Source of the DNA: Nitrospira sp.
GTDB lineage: Bacteria; Nitrospirota; Nitrospiria; Nitrospirales; Nitrospiraceae
Length of the DNA: 64,000 bases
Direction of reading: 5' to 3'
NCBI GenBank assembly: GCA_024998595.1
Contig: JACOEK010000001.1
Coordinates: 868,001-932,000 of the forward strand
Shown here: positions 8,949 to 44,199 of the stretch, in pieces
How positions within the stretch are numbered: the stretch's first letter is position 1
How the letters are laid out: each line of letters starts with the position of its first letter
The notes under the pieces: generated by a model
Database searches by the model: none
Told to the model about the DNA's origin: nothing
The model's input: only the letters and a program-made list of their open reading frames with translations
Position numbers and translations under genes: made by a program

Positions 8949-11900
8949 ATGCTTGTCACCATATGCCTGCTGACCGCCGGAGTCTTTGCCCTTGATGTGA
9001 CCATTCCACTGGGGCATGTCACGTGGCTCCTGTATTGGCTGCCGCTCTGGTTAAGCGCGCGTTTAGCCTTGCCTGCAGCGTCCGTGCGCTACGCATCGTT
9101 GTGTACGCTCCTGTTGGGAGTTGGCCTGTGGTTTGCGCCTCCCGGTGTCGACGTGACGACGGCGTTCTTCAATCGTGCATTGGGAGTGGGGTTGCTCTGG
9201 GCCACGGCCTATCTGCTCACTCAGCGACGCGAAGCAGAAATGGGGCTTCGCTCAGCGAATGGCCGATTGGAGCAGCGCGTGGCAGAACAGACGCAAGATC
9301 TCATCGTTGCCAATGATCGTTTGTCGAGGCAACTGACCCAACAGCGACAGGTCGAGGCGGCATTACGTGAGAGTCGCCAACGGTTTGAATTGGCGGCGGA
9401 GTGCGCGGATGTGGGCGTGTGGGAATGGGATTTGGCAACCAAGTCGGCCTATTACTCTCCTCGATGGAAAAGTCAGCTGGGCTGCGCAGAATCGGATATT
9501 GGTGACACGGTTGCTGATTGGGAGTCACGTCTCCACCCGGATGAACGGGCGGAGGTTCTGGCGACCGTGACGTTGTTTCAGCAGGGGTATACCAAACAGT
9601 ATCGCTTGGATCATCGCCTCCGGCATCAGGATGGGTCGTACCGCTGGATGGCGGCGTTGGGCTCAGGGATCTGGGACGAGCAGGGCCGGATGATTCGGAT
9701 GACAGGTATCCATCTGGATTTTACAGCGAGGAAACAAGCCGAAGACGACAGGAGGGAGAGCGAGGAGCGTTACCGCGACTTAGTCGAGCACGTCGGGGAT
9801 ATCATTTATCGCACCGATGCCGCTGGACGGTTCACCTACTGCAACCCTACCTCGCTCCGGATTCTCGGCTACCTTCCGGAGGAACTTCTCGGGCGCCATT
9901 ACCTGGAGATTATTCAGCCGAATTGTCGTGCTCAGGCCGAGCGGTTTTATGGCCGGCAGTTTATCCGTAAAACGCCGCGGACCGTGTACGAGTTGCCCGT
10001 GGCGACCAAAGACGGGCGGGAAGTATGGCTGGGGCAACACACGCAATTGTTGATGGAAGGGGACGACGTCAACGGATTCCAGGTGGTGGCGCGTGAGATT
10101 ACCGAACGGAAGAGGGTGGAGCAGGAATTGCGGGAGAGTGAGGAGCGTTTTTCAAAGGCCTTTCATAGCAGTCCGGCGGGAATGGCCATCAGCCGCCTTG
10201 AGGACGGACGGGTACTCGACGTCAATGAAGCGTTCGTGCGCGTCTCCGGTTTTTCTCGGGACGAGCTGATCGGCATGTCCTCGCTCGATATCGGCATCTG
10301 GGTCAATTCCGACGACCGCCGACAGCTGGCCGAAACGTTACGGCGGGACGGCTTTCTCCGGCATTTGGAGAAAGAGTTTCGCACGAAATCCGGCGAGCTC
10401 CGGCACGGTCTCTTTAATGTGGAACCGGTCTGTATCGGTCAGGAAAACTGTGTGCTGACGCTGGTCCTGGACATCACGAGGCGCACCGAGGCGGAAGCGG
10501 CATTGCGTCGCAGTCAATCGGTGCTCCAAACGTATCAGCATGCGTTGATGCGTTTGACAAAAAGCCAGCATATCGGTTCGGGGGACTGGCCGTCCGCGCT
10601 GAAGGAGCTTATGCACACCTCGGCGGAGGCCATGGTTGTGGATCGTGCCAGCGTCTGGTTATTGGACCGTAGCGGGGCGGTGCTGGAATGCGCAGAACTC
10701 TATGAACGGGCCCAGGCGCGCCACTCGCGCGGGGCGCGTCTGGATGTCGCGCAGTGTCCCCGGTACTTTGCCCAATTGCTGGAAGAGCAAGTGGTCGATG
10801 CGCATGATGTGGCCAGCGATCTCCGTACCGCTGAATTACTGCAGCCCTATCTCCAGACCTTAGGGATTGCCTCGTTGTTGGATGTGCCGATTTTCTTCGG
10901 CGGTCGTCTGGCCGGAGTCGTCTGTCACGAACGAATCGGATCTGCGCGTAAGTGGAGTAATGAAGAAGCGCAGTTTGCGACGTCCGTCGGGAATTTGGTC
11001 ACGTTGGCCTACGAGGCGAAGCAACGGCGAGAGGCGGAAAATGCCTTAGTCACGGCGAAGGAGGCTGCCGAATTTGCAAATCGAGCCAAGAGTGACTTCC
11101 TGGCCACCATGAGCCATGAGATCCGGACGCCCATGAATGCGATCATCGGCATGGCCGATCTGCTGTCGGAAACGCCCCTGAACGAGGACCAACGAGAGTA
11201 CGTCCAGATTTTTCGTGACGCGGGTAGTAACTTGCTGAGTTTGATCAACGATGTACTCGATCTCTCAAAGATCGAAGCCGGCCATTTGGATTTGGATCTC
11301 ACGGACTTCGATCTCTGTGATCTCGTGCAACGCGCGGCCGAACTGGTCGCCGTTCGGGCGAGTGAAAAGAATCTGGAGTTGGCCTATCAGATCCAGCCTG
11401 ATGTGCCGACCTCGCTCGTGGGCGATCCGAATCGTCTCCGGCAGGTGTTGCTGAATCTGTTGGGCAATGCCATCAAGTTCACGGATCACGGTGAGGTCGT
11501 GTTGCGCGTGGAATGCGACCCGCATGCGGACGGTCCAGGCAATCTGCTGTTCACGGTTCGAGACACCGGCATTGGAATTCCTCACGACAAGTTAGCCGTC
11601 ATTTTTGAACGATTCACCCAAGTGGATTCTTCGATGACGCGGCCATACAGCGGCACGGGTCTCGGCCTCACAATATCCCGCCGTCTGGTTGAGCGGATGG
11701 GCGGAAGAATATGGGTGGATAGTGAACCGGGCCGGGGCAGCACCTTTAGTTTCACGGCCAAGTTTGCCGCGCATGCTCAGCCGGCGCCCGCAGTCCCTGC
11801 TGCGCATTGGGAACAACTCGCGGGTTTGCGCACGTTGATCATCGACGACAATGCCACCAATCGTCTGATTGTGCGAGAAACTCTGACGGGCTGGGGTATC

Positions 11901-12977
11901 CCTTCGGCGGAGGCGGCCGGGGGCGAAGAGGCCGTGAGGGAGTTGCGTCGTGCGCTCACGGACGGCGTACCCTATCGTTTGGTGATTCTGGATGTGCGCA
12001 TGCCGAAACTCAGCGGCTGGCAGGTAGCCGAGACCATTGCTCGTTCGCCTGGTCTGGCCGGAATGTCCATTATCATGCTGACATCGGAACGGCGTGCCGG
12101 CGACCAGGCTCGGGCCCGCGAACATGGGGTTGTGCGGTATCTCACCAAACCCTTTCGACGCTCGGATTTGTTCAATGCCATGATGGCGGTGATGAACAAG
12201 ACGGCGTCGGCCGTGATTCCTGGAACCATCACTCAACCCCAACCAGAGGATCCTGGAGAGGAAGGGGCAGGCCTCAAGATTCTTCTGGCTGAAGATTTTG
12301 TCGACAATCGTCGCATGATGGAATTTTACTTCAAAGCGACGCCGCACCGGATAGAGACGGCGGCAAATGGTCAGATTGCCCTCGAGATGTTCATGCACGG
12401 ATCCTATGATCTTGTCTTGATGGATATTCAGATGCCCGTGCTGGATGGTTATGCTGCGACGAGGGCGATCCGGGCATGGGAAAAAGATCAGGGCCGCCAC
12501 CCCACACCGATCCTGGCTCTCACGGCCAATGCGTTGCAGAGTGAAGTGCAGCGCAGTCTTGATGCGGGGTGTACGGCGCATCTCACGAAACCCATCCGCA
12601 AAGCCCGGCTCTTGGAAGCGATTCAACTATATTTCCAGTCCGCGCCCTCCTCCGCGCCGCTTGCGCCAGCTTTTCAGGAAGAGCTCGCCGTCCTCCATGT
12701 CAGCATGGAGCTTGAGACGCTCATGCCTGGTTTTCTGGAACATCGACGCCAGGATGTGATTCAGCTGACGGAGGCATTGAGGCGTGAAGACTTTGAGATG
12801 GTGCGGGAGATTGGCCACGGCCTCAAGGGGGCCGGCGGAACGTATGGGCTTGAAGCCATTACGGCCTATGGACGGTCTTTGGAAGAGACAGCGTCTCGGC
12901 ATGATGGTCCTGCTGTGCGCGAGATCCTGGAACGGCTCAGACGGTTTCTGGATCGGATTCAGCTGATCTATGTGTAG
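8949..12977 (+). CDS. Hybrid sensor histidine kinase (PAS-PAS-PAS-GAF-HisKA-HATPase-REC-REC-HPt)
   Basis: 1342 residues. Order: two or three membrane segments (residues 1-90), a coiled coil, three PAS domains (about 138-255, 275-390, 400-510), a GAF domain (about 530-690), HisKA with His723 in [10 protein letters not shown], HATPase ([23 protein letters not shown]), two receivers with Asp1015 (ILDVRMP) and Asp1159 (LMDIQMP), and a C-terminal HPt domain with His1290 (GHGLKGAGG). All residues for a full His-Asp-His relay are present. It is followed 13 bases later by an NtrC-type regulator, its likely output. Multiple PAS and a GAF domain suggest sensing of redox, gas or a small ligand, but no cofactor site can be assigned. 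Confidence 0.95.
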
Positions 12978-12990
12978 AGGGTAGAACGGC

Positions 12991-14385
12991 ATGCGTGTCC
13001 TGCTCGTGGAAGATCATCCCGATGTCCGGCGCTTGTTCGAGCAGGTGATCGGGGCGCGGGGGCATGAGGTGACGGCCTGCGCGGATGGCGAATCGGCATG
13101 GGAGGCGTATGGCAAGCGGTCGTATGAACTCGTGTTGCTCGATTGGGAATTGCGCGGGGATGGAATGGACGGACTGCAGCTCTGCCGGAACATTCGGTCC
13201 GGCCCCGGTGGAGACCGCTGCGTCATTGTCATGATCACCGGGCACGATTCTCCGGAATCACTGCGCGCGGCGCTTCAGGCTGGGGTCAACGACTATTTGA
13301 CCAAGCCCGTCGGTGTCGAATTCCTACGATTGCGGTTGACGATTGCCGAGCAGTGGGTGGAAAGCGTGCGGCGCCGATTCGCGGCTGAGGATCAGGCGCA
13401 AGCGCTTCAGTCGCAGCTGGCGGATCACGGCAAGTTTCATGACCTGATCGGTCGAAGTCCGTCTATGGTGGTGTTGTATGAAGAGATTCAACGGATTGCG
13501 GCAGTGGATGCCACGGTGTTGATCGAGGGGGAAACCGGTACGGGGAAGGAATTGGTGGCTCGTGCGATCCATCTTTCCAGCCGCCGCGCGCCGCACACCT
13601 TTCTCGCCGTCAATTGTGCAGGGTTCACCGACTCGATTTTGGGCAGCCAACTATTCGGTCACAAAAAGGGGGCCTTCACAGGCGCCATCGAAAACCAGGA
13701 GGGGGTATTTGAGGCCGCGCAGGGGGGCACCATATTTCTGGACGAGATCGGCGATATTTCCCCTGCAGTGCAAACCAGCCTGTTGCGCGTGTTGCAGGAA
13801 AGGGAAGTTACGAGATTGGGCGAATCGAAGCCTCGCAGGGTCGACGTTCGGGTGGTGGTGGCGACCCATCACAACCTTGCGGAGGACGTAGAGAAAGGCA
13901 CGTTCCGGCGGGATCTGCTGTATCGGATCAAGGTGGCGCGCCTCCAACTCACGCCGCTTCGTGAACGCCCGACGGATATTCCCCTTCTGGTCCATGCGTT
14001 TCTTGGACAGTTTCGCTCGGTGATGGAAAAGCCGGTGCTCCAGGTGAGTTCTGAGGCGCTGCGGGTCCTGACCAGCCATTCCTGGCCCGGGAATGTTCGC
14101 GAGTTAAAGAGCGCCGTGGAGTCAGCATTGATTCATTGCAAAGGGACCGTGGTGCGGCCGGAAGATCTCCCGCCGGAAGTCCGCAGTCCGGAGCCACAGG
14201 CGACCTATGTTCCGCTGCAGCGTCAGGACGAGCGATCCCGCATGCTGGGGGCACTGCAGCAGACGGGGGGCAATCGTTCCGAGGCTGCTCGCTTGCTGGG
14301 CATGAGCCGGCGAACCTTCTACCGTCGCCTGGCTGAATACGATGTGCTGGCCTCGGCCGAGTTTGGTGCGGATTCCTTTCAGTAA
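12991..14385 (+). CDS. NtrC-family sigma-54-dependent response regulator
   Basis: 464 residues with the full NtrC layout: receiver with Asp51 (LLDWEL), AAA+ domain with Walker A GETGTGKE (about residues 180-187), the sigma-54 contact loop GAFTGA (227-232), Walker B IFLDEIGD, the arginine-finger region, and a C-terminal Fis-type HTH (GNRSEAARLLGMSRRTFYRR). It therefore remodels RNA polymerase-sigma-54 from an upstream enhancer when phosphorylated. It directly follows the hybrid kinase. A sigma-54-like promoter with an inverted repeat upstream lies in the very next intergenic region, which makes the adjacent modules its probable targets. Confidence 0.96.
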   Translation: MRVLLVEDHPDVRRLFEQVIGARGHEVTACADGESAWEAYGKRSYELVLLDWELRGDGMDGLQLCRNIRSGPGGDRCVIVMITGHDSPESLRAALQAGVNDYLTKPVGVEFLRLRLTIAEQWVESVRRRFAAEDQAQALQSQLADHGKFHDLIGRSPSMVVLYEEIQRIAAVDATVLIEGETGTGKELVARAIHLSSRRAPHTFLAVNCAGFTDSILGSQLFGHKKGAFTGAIENQEGVFEAAQGGTIFLDEIGDISPAVQTSLLRVLQEREVTRLGESKPRRVDVRVVVATHHNLAEDVEKGTFRRDLLYRIKVARLQLTPLRERPTDIPLLVHAFLGQFRSVMEKPVLQVSSEALRVLTSHSWPGNVRELKSAVESALIHCKGTVVRPEDLPPEVRSPEPQATYVPLQRQDERSRMLGALQQTGGNRSEAARLLGMSRRTFYRRLAEYDVLASAEFGADSFQ

Positions 14386-14534: not shown

Positions 14535-14569
14535 GTCACATGACACACATGTGACACAGCACAGTGTGC
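14535..14569. promoter_or_regulatory. Inverted repeats, candidate enhancer (UAS) for the NtrC-type activator
   Basis: A perfect 8-base inverted repeat with a 5-base spacer (GTCACATG/CATGTGAC, 14535-14555) is followed at once by an 11-base palindrome GCACAGTGTGC (14559-14569). They lie about 115-145 bases upstream of the start point predicted from the -24/-12 element at 14657, the usual place for sigma-54 enhancer sites. The phrase GTGACACAGCA inside this block (14551-14561) recurs at 16608-16618 ahead of the second module. Binding by the adjacent regulator is inference. Confidence 0.55.
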
Positions 14570-14615
14570 CATCTCATTGACGCACCGACCCGTTTGGTGA
14601 GGTGGTCTTCGGTCT

Positions 14616-14656: not shown

Positions 14657-14672
14657 TGGCACGATCCTTGAT
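14657..14672 (+). promoter_or_regulatory. Sigma-54-like promoter of module 1
   Basis: TGGCACG at 14657-14663 is a perfect -24 element; TTGAT at 14668-14672 stands in the -12 position with the required ten bases between the GG and the G of the -12 box. The consensus -12 GC is GA here. The same sequence with the same deviation occurs before the second module, which supports function. The predicted start point is near 14683, about 60 bases before the first gene. Confidence 0.6.
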
Positions 14673-14744: not shown

Positions 14745-14990
14745 ATGGATGTCGAAGGATTCCTCATCTCAAACGGCGTGGATGGCGATGTATTAGTGAC
14801 TATTCCGCCCTCGTCCCTTGGACCATTCGATCAGCCGGATGTCAGAGAGCACATAGATGGATATTGGGTCGATATGTCTCGATTGCCGAACAGGACATGG
14901 TCGGACCGGACACGGGCGGTCGGGGCCGTGCTGACGTACCTGCGCCGATTGTCGGCCATTTCGGCAGGGTTTTCTGCCCAGACGAGATGA
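14745..14990 (+). CDS. Unknown 81-residue protein, module 1
   Basis: I do not recognise this family. The ATG at 14745 follows AGAGGG at 14735-14740; a longer in-frame start at 14709 is less likely because the 81-residue form matches exactly the length of its paralogue at 16832-17077. Hand alignment without gaps gives about 31 of 81 identical residues, with conserved GFL near residue 5, DG-WV at 38-42, TW--RT-A at 51-58 and AVL-YL-RL at 61-69. It has no signal peptide or membrane segment and looks like a small soluble alpha/beta protein. The LuxR-type gene follows 42 bases later, so the two probably act together under the sigma-54-like promoter. Confidence 0.75.
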   Translation: MDVEGFLISNGVDGDVLVTIPPSSLGPFDQPDVREHIDGYWVDMSRLPNRTWSDRTRAVGAVLTYLRRLSAISAGFSAQTR

Positions 14991-15032
14991 CGTGGATGAT
15001 AAGTCGGAACCAGAACCAAAGGAGAACACACC

Positions 15033-15350
15033 ATGTGGAATAATCAGCAGGAGATATTGCGCAGTGCCCGGGAAGACAATGCACGAGAAGGATCCGGACT
15101 GAGTCTGGTGTCGGGCGTGACCATGGCCGTGAAGCGTCGCCCTGAGGATTTGACTCCGCGCGAGCAGGAAATCCTGCAACTGGTCTGGGCAGGATTGACC
15201 AATCGCACGATTGCGGAGCAATTGCATATCAGTATCAAGACTGCGGAGGCGCATCGGGCCAACATGATGAAGAAACTTCGGGTCTCCAACATCGCCCAGC
15301 TGTTAAAAACGGCGCTGGAAGAGGGGCTGCTCGCCACCCATGCGGGCTAA
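15033..15350 (+). CDS. Receiver-less LuxR-type HTH regulator, module 1
   Basis: 105 residues; ATG preceded by AAAGGAG at 15019-15025. Only the C-terminal LuxR/GerE helix-turn-helix is present (LTPREQEILQLVWAG, then KTAEAHRANMMKKLRVSN); the first 35 residues have no receiver or ligand domain. It should bind DNA constitutively or be controlled by a partner or by its own level. Its HTH is roughly 70 percent identical to that of the gene at 17134-17484 and clearly related to the one at 43766-44101. Each of the first two copies follows an 81-residue unknown protein, suggesting that protein may modulate it. The target genes are unknown. Confidence 0.88.
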   Translation: MWNNQQEILRSAREDNAREGSGLSLVSGVTMAVKRRPEDLTPREQEILQLVWAGLTNRTIAEQLHISIKTAEAHRANMMKKLRVSNIAQLLKTALEEGLLATHAG

Positions 15351-15499
15351 AGGGATTCGCGGCGGCCCGCGCTCTCGGAAGAAGTCCCACTTCCGGCAGT
15401 GCGGCGACTCCCCGCGAGTCCGCCCCCCTGCAGCATAAATCATGCTCGCACCGGCGACGGCGTTTGCAGTAAAATGCCGAACCGTCGCAGGAGCGAGCC

Positions 15500-15892
15500 G
15501 TGGTCGAACAACGTATCGAAGAAATCACCCGCGCAAACCTAGCCTTTTACGCCGCCTTTGAAAGTCTGGATATGCTCCAGATGGACAAGGTCTGGGCACA
15601 TCTCGAGTACGTCACCTGCATTCACCCCGGCTGGAGTCTCCGAAGCGACTGGCCCGCCGTGCGCGATTCCTGGGTGCTGATCTTCAACAACACCTTCTCC
15701 ATGAAATTCGAGCTATCCGACGTGCAGATCCAGGTTGCAGGGGATTTGGGGTGGGTGATTTGTACCGAGCACCTCACCAGTCGGCAGGACGACCAGCCGG
15801 TTGAAACCCGCGTTCTCGCCACCAACCTCTTTGAACGGATCGGTGATGAGTGGTTGATGATTCATCACCACGGCAGTCCCGTGATGGGGTAG
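15500..15892 (+). CDS. SnoaL/NTF2-like fold protein
   Basis: 130 residues from a GTG at 15500 with AGGAG 8 bases upstream. The pattern of an N-terminal helix (ITRANLAFYAAFESLD), W-H-----CIHPGW, VRDSWVLIF and a final WLMIHHHGSP strand fits the SnoaL-like_3 / DUF4440 group of the NTF2 superfamily. Members are small cone-shaped proteins that bind or act on varied small molecules; many have no known activity. No catalytic assignment can be made. It lies alone between the LuxR-type gene and a lipoprotein gene, so context gives little. Confidence 0.75.
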   Translation: MVEQRIEEITRANLAFYAAFESLDMLQMDKVWAHLEYVTCIHPGWSLRSDWPAVRDSWVLIFNNTFSMKFELSDVQIQVAGDLGWVICTEHLTSRQDDQPVETRVLATNLFERIGDEWLMIHHHGSPVMG

Positions 15893-16039
15893 GGGATCCC
15901 AGAGCGAGCCGTCGGATCCCGTCACTATCGACCAAGCATGTCTGAGCGGACGATGACGTGCCGGATAGGACACCCAGGCCGGTCGAGCTACCGCTGTGAG
16001 TACCAATTCCCGTACGATTTCGATGGGGAGCTGTCCGAC

Positions 16040-16438
16040 ATGAAACGAATATCTCCTGCCGTGAGGTGGGCGGGGTTGTGGACCGTGCTGTTGTCCGGAT
16101 GTACCACCGTGGCTCAGATCACCACGCTGTCGGATGAATCCTGTCGTGAGAGGGTGCGCGGCCAGCTTGAATCCGTTCTCGTAGAGGAGGGTGAACAACC
16201 CGAGATGGCCAATCGTCTCGCCGTGAATACCACTCTGGTGTTGGCGACCGGCTCGCTTGGGCCTCGTCCCTTTGGAGTGTCTTCGCCCTCCGGCACCGAT
16301 TACAGTTTCTTTGTTCAACGTAAAGGCGAGACCTGCCTCCTGCGACTCTATGGTCGCCAAAAGGGGTTTACGCGTTACACCAACAATCTTAGCTATATTT
16401 CCACTCGCGCTCTTGAAGGGTGCGCCTGCGCCGAATAA
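16040..16438 (+). CDS. Small lipoprotein of unknown function
   Basis: 132 residues from the ATG at 16040, which has GGGAG just upstream; the in-frame start at 15938 would bury the signal sequence and is rejected. Residues 1-22 form a lipoprotein signal ending in the lipobox LLSGC, so the mature protein should be lipid-anchored at Cys17-20 and exported. The mature part has two further Cys pairs (CRERV, CLLRL and a C-terminal CAC) and no family I recognise. It may be an outer-membrane-anchored periplasmic protein. Confidence 0.7.
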   Translation: MKRISPAVRWAGLWTVLLSGCTTVAQITTLSDESCRERVRGQLESVLVEEGEQPEMANRLAVNTTLVLATGSLGPRPFGVSSPSGTDYSFFVQRKGETCLLRLYGRQKGFTRYTNNLSYISTRALEGCACAE

Positions 16439-16831
16439 CCGGTGTGTGGCGATAGTCATTCCCTCCCGTCTTTTCTCCGTTTCTCAACTGAGTCAATCGA
16501 GCACGTGCCTTGAAGCGGTCTGTCGCTTTCGGCGAGCGGCAGCGCACCATCGTATGTTGTCGCTCAACCATGTCTCATGGCGACGCTTTGGCACAGCTTC
16601 GTTGATCGTGACACAGCAGCGTACCGCCCGGTTTTAACCGGCTGAAAGCCGCAAGCCGTTGTTTCTTCTGGGATGCGACGTATTGCGGGCTCATGGCACG
16701 TCCTTTGATGTAGTGGCTGATAGACGGCGTAGGGCAAACACCTTGCGGAATTCAAGGGAGGTGGCGAGATGGAACTGAAGGAAGGGCCACGGTTGGGCCA
16801 ATGGTGCCGGAGCACAAAGGAGGAACGATCC
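16439..16831. other. Intergenic region with the control sequences of module 2
   Basis: These 393 bases have short overlapping frames on both strands but none with a convincing start, ribosome site or recognisable protein. The right part carries GTGACACAGCA at 16608-16618, shared with the enhancer-like block of module 1, and the sigma-54-like element at 16694. The left part shows nothing I can name. Confidence 0.5.
16694..16709 (+). promoter_or_regulatory. Sigma-54-like promoter of module 2
   Basis: TGGCACG at 16694-16700 and TTGAT at 16705-16709 repeat the -24/-12 arrangement seen at 14657, again with ten bases between GG and the -12 G and again GA in place of GC. The predicted start point is about 16720, some 110 bases before the first gene of the module. 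Confidence 0.58.
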
Positions 16832-17077
16832 ATGACTGTGAAGGGGTTTTTGCTGAAAGATCGGGAAGACCAGGAATATCTGCTGGCCATTCAACCAGCG
16901 ACGCATGGCATGTTCGAACGACTCATCGTGCGTCAAAAGGTCGATGGGTGTTGGGTTGAATTAAACGGGAACACGCAGGGTACCTGGCAACCTCGTACCC
17001 AAGCCATCACGGCCGTGTTGGGGTATCTCCAACGCCTGTGGGATACGTCCAAACCTGTCGCGGCACGGGAACATTAG
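16832..17077 (+). CDS. Unknown 81-residue protein, module 2 (paralogue of 14745-14990)
   Basis: The ATG at 16832 has a near-perfect ribosome site, AAAGGAGG at 16816-16824, and gives 81 residues, the same length as the module 1 protein; an upstream in-frame ATG at 16769 is therefore unlikely. The two copies align end to end without gaps, sharing GFL, D-G-WV, TW--RT-A and AVL-YL-RL. No known domain is recognised. It is followed 56 bases later by the second LuxR-type gene. Conservation of both the pair and the promoter type through duplication argues that protein and regulator function together. Confidence 0.78.
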   Translation: MTVKGFLLKDREDQEYLLAIQPATHGMFERLIVRQKVDGCWVELNGNTQGTWQPRTQAITAVLGYLQRLWDTSKPVAAREH

Positions 17078-17133
17078 CGAGCGGGATCTCGTGGGACCGT
17101 GGGTGGGGGTGATAGACTATGAGGAGGGGTACC

Positions 17134-17484
17134 ATGCTGGCCGAAAAACAAGACAGGGGCGGGGACAATCAAGACTCGGCGGGAAGCAGATCGTCCGCGA
17201 AGAACCGGGAGGGGTCTGCCGATCTTGACATGTCTGTCCCGAAGCGCAAGCCGGAGGATCTCACGCCTCGGGAGTTGGAAATTCTCCGTCTGATCTGGGA
17301 TGGTCATACCAACCGCAGCATTGCGGAACTTCTGAGCATCAGCATGAAGACTGCCGATACCCATCGGGCCAATATCATGAAGAAACTGCGAGTTTCCAAT
17401 ACCGCTCAGTTGTTAAAGGCGGCGCTAGAGGGGAAGCTGTTACATACCCATGACGGAACTCGGAGCCCAGACGGGAATAAGTAA
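17134..17484 (+). CDS. Receiver-less LuxR-type HTH regulator, module 2
   Basis: 116 residues from the ATG at 17134, which follows GAGGAGGGG; the ATG at 17119 overlaps that ribosome site. A charged, Ser/Gly-rich N-terminal tail of about 40 residues precedes a LuxR-type HTH (LTPRELEILRLIWDG, then KTADTHRANIMKKLRVSN). There is no receiver or autoinducer domain. It is the close paralogue of 15033-15350 and forms the second gene of the duplicated module. The tail differs completely between the two copies, so they may answer to different inputs while binding similar DNA. Confidence 0.88.
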   Translation: MLAEKQDRGGDNQDSAGSRSSAKNREGSADLDMSVPKRKPEDLTPRELEILRLIWDGHTNRSIAELLSISMKTADTHRANIMKKLRVSNTAQLLKAALEGKLLHTHDGTRSPDGNK

Positions 17485-43765: not shown

Positions 43766-44101
43766 CTATCTGAAAGCAAAGTTCTTGGGAAGGAAACCCT
43801 GCTGCAGCGCCTGGCGAAGCAGTTGCGCCACGTTGCGGACCTTCAATCGCCGCATCAGGTTAAATCGATGCACCTCAACCGTGCGAACGCTGATATCCAG
43901 ACGGCGGGCGATATCGCGGTTGGTGTTCCCTTGCGACACTAGTTTGAGAATTTCTTTTTGTCGGGGAGTCAGACCGTCGGAGCGTTTGGCGCGCGCCGGC
44001 ACTGCCTTGGACAACTTCACGGGCTTTCGTTTCTTCGCTGCGGGAGCAGCTTTGGTGGCCTTCGAGGATTTTTTGGGTTGAGGTCGTTTGCGTAGTGCCA
44101 T
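43766..44101 (-). CDS. Receiver-less LuxR-type HTH regulator
   Basis: 111 residues from the ATG at 44099-44101; 44119 is possible but the basic tail begins at MALRKRPQPKK. The first 50 residues are Lys/Ala-rich (like a histone tail); the rest is a LuxR-type HTH (LTPRQKEILKLVSQG, then RTVEVHRFNLMRRLKVRN). It belongs with the two module regulators at 15033 and 17134 but has no 81-residue partner gene beside it. It is oriented away from the permease gene. The basic tail would favour DNA binding. Confidence 0.85.
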   Translation of the reverse strand: MALRKRPQPKKSSKATKAAPAAKKRKPVKLSKAVPARAKRSDGLTPRQKEILKLVSQGNTNRDIARRLDISVRTVEVHRFNLMRRLKVRNVAQLLRQALQQGFLPKNFAFR

Positions 44102-44199
44102 AAAGATTATGTACCCCAAATTCTACTGAACGTAATCTTAGCATACCTGGGTAAATCTGTAAAAACAATTACTGGACTGTCGGACGAGCGAGCGTACGG

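Follow-up and report, generated by a model that had tools for sequence, protein, structure and literature searches.

Two orphan-protein/LuxR gene pairs as probable sigma-54 output operons of an adjacent two-component system in Nitrospira

In the NtrC-Nac relay of enteric bacteria, an NtrC-type activator works through a sigma-54 promoter on a second DNA-binding regulator, which spreads the signal. The Nitrospira locus described here is alike in that, as predicted from sequence, an activator and sigma-54 promoters would lead to a second regulator; in contrast to Nac, however, this regulator (L) is a receiver-less LuxR/GerE protein present in two copies, each encoded after an orphan small gene (S). 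L1 and L2 resemble Bacillus GerE and PedR (NF052366) in having one LuxR-type HTH and no receiver or autoinducer domain, but they differ from PedR in score (48 and 46 bits against a cut-off of 120), and from stand-alone GerE-type regulators in their variable N-terminal tails of 30–40 residues and their sigma-54 promoters. For the HrpRS-HrpV-HrpL system of Pseudomonas syringae, one account (PMC4145663) describes sigma-54 activators driving HrpL, and HrpV acting on the activator; HrpL is a sigma factor, whereas L is a LuxR-type protein. HrpV serves here as a model for a possible role of S rather than as a homologue: S2 matched the HrpV family (NF041531) with 12.3 bits (E 0.12) against a cut-off of 150, which we treated as chance. 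Within Nitrospira, sigma-54 regulators adjoin nxrAB, the genes they are thought to control (PMC6606698, PMC7522533); those loci differ from the present one, since nxr encodes nitrite oxidoreductase and not regulators. The kinds of parts at the locus are known, sigma-54-activator-to-regulator relays included; what is new is the way they are combined, and S itself, and a literature search (titles, open-licence literature) did not find the S-L locus.

We propose that S1-L1 and S2-L2 are, quite probably, twin output operons of the adjacent two-component system. From the genes, domains, promoters, sites, conservation and losses read in the sequence, we infer a circuit with binding by NtrC, targets of L and, as discussed below, a role for S. 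A membrane hybrid kinase would sense a signal and phosphorylate the NtrC-type activator; the activator would bind TGRCACA half-sites approximately 85–120 bp upstream of two sigma-54 promoters, and once bound would switch on S1-L1 and S2-L2. L1 and L2, single-domain proteins with no sensing domain, would then pass the signal to further promoters, in the way that Nac acts downstream of NtrC; judged from the family of L, such a relay is likely. L looks like the lasting conserved output, and S like an accessory, optional first gene. This circuit predicts that the activator and rpoN are needed for both operons. The locus would provide a compact signalling unit (sensor, activator, two promoters with sites, and two output regulators) in Nitrospira, nitrite oxidisers whose regulation is poorly understood, and it points to an orphan protein family with losses already mapped.

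Table 1 Features of the two-component system and the two S-L modules (positions within the window).
Feature	Position	Strand	Basis or description
Hybrid histidine kinase	8949..12977	+	Pfam; membrane-spanning N-terminus, PAS, GAF, HisKA, HATPase, two receivers, Hpt
NtrC-type sigma-54 activator	12991..14385	+	Receiver, sigma-54 interaction domain with GAFTGA, HTH_8
Candidate activator sites, promoter 1: TGACACA (14541), TGACACA (14552), TGTGCCA (14565)	14541..14571	+	
Promoter 1, sigma-54 -24/-12 element TGGCACGATCCTTGAT	14657..14672	+	Motif match, conservation
S1, orphan protein, 81 aa	14745..14990	+	81 aa counted from conserved ATG
L1, receiver-less LuxR/GerE HTH protein, 105 aa	15033..15350	+	GerE HTH; conserved at every locus
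SnoaL_3 protein	15500..15892	+	PF13474 (1.5e-28); between modules
Predicted lipoprotein, lipobox LSGC	16040..16438	+	Start judged from lipobox and orthologues; between modules
Candidate activator sites, promoter 2: TGTCTCA (16571), TGGCACA (16589), TGACACA (16609)	16571..16615	+	
Promoter 2, sigma-54 -24/-12 element TGGCACGTCCTTTGAT	16694..16709	+	Motif match, conservation
S2, orphan protein, 81 aa	16832..17077	+	81 aa counted from conserved ATG
L2, receiver-less LuxR/GerE HTH protein, 116 aa	17134..17484	+	Domain match, conservation

The two copies of the S-then-L pair lie on the + strand of a 64-kb Nitrospira window (the whole stretch of DNA that was analysed), at 14745–15350 and 16832–17484, with the coordinates and gene order reported in an initial annotation of the same DNA. 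S1 and S2 exhibited 39% identity over 79 residues (ungapped, E = 5e-20), close to the approximately 38% obtained earlier by hand alignment, and L1 and L2 exhibited 66% identity over 89 residues, HTH included. The start of L2 was placed at the codon of MLAEK... (17134) and not at the ATG at 17119, the choice being made by conservation. The exact 81-residue length originally noted for S was invariant among S2 orthologues, whereas intact S1 orthologues ranged from 81 to 98 residues. Orthologous loci were taken from 28 other Nitrospira genomes, and the median dN/dS (with synonymous sites partly saturated) was 0.17 for S1, 0.04 for S2, 0.13 for L1, 0.18 for L2 and 0.015 for SnoaL. These values indicate that S1, S2, L1 and L2 are real genes under purifying selection, with S2 the more constrained S copy; the pairs stand beyond chance because each of the S copies is found again at orthologous positions, with a low dN/dS.

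Phylogenetic analyses placed the S2 sequences in one clade (support 100) and the L2 sequences in one clade (support 98). Their distinctness indicates that the two modules were already separate, and the pair already duplicated, before most of the diversification of the genus, in keeping with the proposal of the initial annotation that a conserved pair had been kept after a genuine duplication. The L2-like gene of genome G004 grouped with L2, with weak support (61). The two conserved sigma-54 promoters together with the kinase/NtrC pair, none of which the initial annotation had included, would explain why the S-L pair was duplicated as a unit.

The activator gene starts 13 nt past the kinase gene, and the S-L modules lie just downstream; this adjacency of kinase, NtrC and modules is kept in nearly all loci. 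Syntenic orthologues of the kinase are 71–90% identical, and the activator matches PF00072, PF00158 and PF02954, with GAFTGA seen in its sequence. The genome carries one sigma-54 gene (PF04552, 3e-56). A full-length NtrC orthologue was found in 23 of 29 Nitrospira genomes; G011, G016, G028 and G024 lack the gene, G013 has a truncated copy, and in G010 the contig breaks.

The pattern TGGCAC-N5-TTGAT, which had been spotted by eye in the same sequence before counting, occurs twice in the window (14657 and 16694; 0.02 expected), each time preceding an S gene. In alignments of the upstream regions both elements were conserved, that of promoter 1 in 27 of 28 loci; promoter 1 was not found in G028. 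Conserved half-sites (TGRCACA/TGTGYCA) are located at -116, -105 and -92 from the -24 element of promoter 1; at promoter 2, TGRCACA-type sites lie around -105 and -85, with TGTCTCA further up at about -124, and the half-site spacings are near-constant across genomes. Paired half-sites (TGRCACA-N3-14-TGRCACA) occurred four times genome-wide, compared with none for the reversed control: one each at promoters 1 and 2, a third where the coding sequence of a peptidyl-prolyl isomerase begins, and a fourth behind another NtrC-type gene. Elsewhere in the genome TGGCACNNNNNTTGA occurs at eleven other sites, and the five of these whose context was read had no half-sites within 250 bp. Between promoter 2 and its activator sites, a sequence fitting the IHF-type pattern (CAANNNNTTR) lies at -42/-43 in slightly more than half of the genomes; we do not propose it as a site.

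Two side observations concern regulatory DNA. At L179:2122-2138, TGACACA-N3-TGGCACA directly follows another NtrC-type gene and precedes a receiver/HD-domain gene, and is perhaps a related activator site. The S2 leader (16726–16752; CGTAGGGCAAACACCTTG...) carries a block that has stayed largely the same in the 22 S2-containing genomes and that also precedes the L2-like gene of G004, where S2 and a clear sigma-54 site are missing; this block may be an RNA element, a remnant or a site for L, and an Rfam search at E up to 1, covering the block, gave no structured-RNA match.

We then compared the retention of S with that of its neighbours. L follows every intact S (41 of 41: 16 S1, 22 S2, and three single-copy S0 in G001, G004 and G007), with a gap of about 30–70 bp throughout; the initial annotation had taken S homologues mostly lacking a LuxR-type neighbour as what would speak against its reading, which is the opposite of what was found. 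In G021, the G006/G015/G025 group and G024, S1 has been frameshifted, has decayed or has been deleted; an insertion interrupts it in G013; and no intact S is present in G011, G016 or G028. L1 persists in these nine genomes, which have no intact S beside it, and its HTH there is 94–100% identical to the copy in the window; four of the nine (G011, G013, G016 and G028) lack any intact S, and in G004 the L2-like gene stands without S2. In G013 (L063:4560-5145, the reverse complement of G013:C85), the insertion splits S and NtrC is truncated, with promoter 1, its half-sites and L1 still in place.

Each of the 23 genomes whose NtrC is intact carries at least one intact S, while four of the five genomes without an intact NtrC have no intact S and the fifth, G024, keeps S2 (Fisher 0.0002, a value that ignores relatedness). 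The four S-less genomes form one group in the locus tree (support 83), so the association corresponds to approximately one deep event and not four. These results suggest, on few independent events, that S retention goes with the neighbouring NtrC rather than with L.

Could the two promoters be driven by a different sigma-54 activator, such as the 62% identical paralogue described below, leaving the adjacent two-component system unrelated to them? NtrC-type matches number about eleven in the genome, another NtrC gene is followed by a similar pair of half-sites, and G024 retains both promoters, the half-sites and S2 in the absence of this NtrC, a pattern that fits either a recent loss of NtrC or another activator. 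Furthermore, promoter 1 is kept in G011 and G016 despite the missing NtrC, and another activator may act there. However, in nearly all loci the kinase and NtrC genes have stayed next to the modules, and the half-sites are gone in G011 and reduced to one in G016, both lacking this NtrC, though other NtrC genes remain; together with the missing promoter 1 of G028, this loss fits the loss of a cognate activator. We therefore regard a different activator as unlikely, and regulation by the adjacent NtrC as the preferred reading.

The role of S is a separate matter. S could be a dedicated partner of L, as the initial annotation had suggested—a co-activator or anti-regulator that binds L and controls its DNA binding. 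S invariably precedes L at close distance, the two were duplicated together, and the faster evolution of S1 is paralleled by the N-terminal tails of L; the adjacency, however, would be explained by a shared promoter alone, and the persistence of L1 without an adjacent S in nine genomes, four of them S-less, with its HTH intact, and of the L2-like gene in G004, speaks against S being required. Since S2 could serve L1 where S2 is kept, the evidence from L1 just weakens this proposal; the constant association of S with L stood, the dependence of L on S did not, and we consider a dedicated partnership rather doubtful. A toxin-antitoxin pair, with S as toxin and L as DNA-binding antitoxin, would match two small genes in one operon and the observation that genomes lose S and keep L but never lose L and keep S, the pattern to be expected were L to protect against S. 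This reading is nonetheless highly improbable: the locus has a fixed chromosomal position with vertical inheritance across the genus, S has no plasmid or viral homologue and no PADLOC match, the conservation of L far exceeds that of typical antitoxins, and sigma-54 promoters with activator sites are unusual for toxin-antitoxin pairs. Feedback of S on the kinase or the activator is more likely than obligate partnership with L, although we put it forward as a tentative suggestion, and some role other than feedback, partnership or toxicity is at least as probable. Equally tentatively, S may be the founder of a genus-restricted small-protein family from NtrC target operons, which would feed back on the kinase or activator and tune a sigma-54 relay to LuxR outputs.

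Database searches are consistent with S being an orphan family restricted to the genus Nitrospira. Of the 396 phylum genomes searched with an S profile (20 members), 21 contained S, and these belong to a single genus out of 169, which includes Ca. Nitrospira defluvii (FP929003); no homologue outside Nitrospira was found in the 396 phylum genomes, plasmids or viral contigs, and a broad scan of genome contigs, which detects close relatives only, found S in Nitrospira/Nitrospiraceae alone. Matches outside the genus in G036 and G041 (E 0.002) were absent with the profile and were dropped as chance. The initial annotation placed the small protein outside known families, and indeed searches of Pfam, NCBIfam, PHROGs, PADLOC and the PDB sequences returned nothing significant for S. 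S1 is acidic (pI 5.1). AlphaFold2 predicted four strands and a helix (beta4-alpha; pLDDT 63 for S2 and 76 for S1), a topology that is also that of PUR and PC4 domains. The resemblance to the PUR/PC4-like ssDNA-binding fold is one of predicted topology, with search scores below support for membership; fold searches of the PDB with two models gave nothing significant (Foldseek E-values from 0.66 upwards; the top Z, 4.8, belonged to an unrelated chain).

The genes separating the two modules are, as initially described, a SnoaL-like gene and a lipoprotein gene. SnoaL_3 orthologues are 95–100% identical within the genus, and across the order the protein occurs in 24 of the 25 genomes examined, a constraint that appears unusually strong for an uncharacterised protein. 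A conserved TAMAAT-like element lies ahead of the SnoaL_3 gene, which is probably its own transcription unit.

A paralogous arrangement was found in the same genome at C6:79,815, where a stand-alone LuxR gene comes after a sigma-54 activator (62% identical in the central domain) and no S gene lies between the two. The gap between these genes contains AGGCACGGAGCTTGTA, a possible weaker -24/-12 element. This activator-LuxR pair suggests that the activator-to-LuxR arrangement is the core and S an addition. In the wider locus (L161, G000:C6:76500-82500), a small GTPase, a PAS-containing sigma-54 activator and the stand-alone LuxR gene lie in a row.

L1 and L2 contain one GerE HTH each (PF00196; 8e-20 and 4e-18), with no Pfam match to a receiver or autoinducer-binding family and with tails of just 30–40 residues, and the L1 HTH is 89–100% identical across all loci. 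The genome carries several single-domain LuxR genes; within the window, the minus strand at 43766–44119 encodes one more stand-alone LuxR HTH protein, whose N-terminal tail is rich in lysine.
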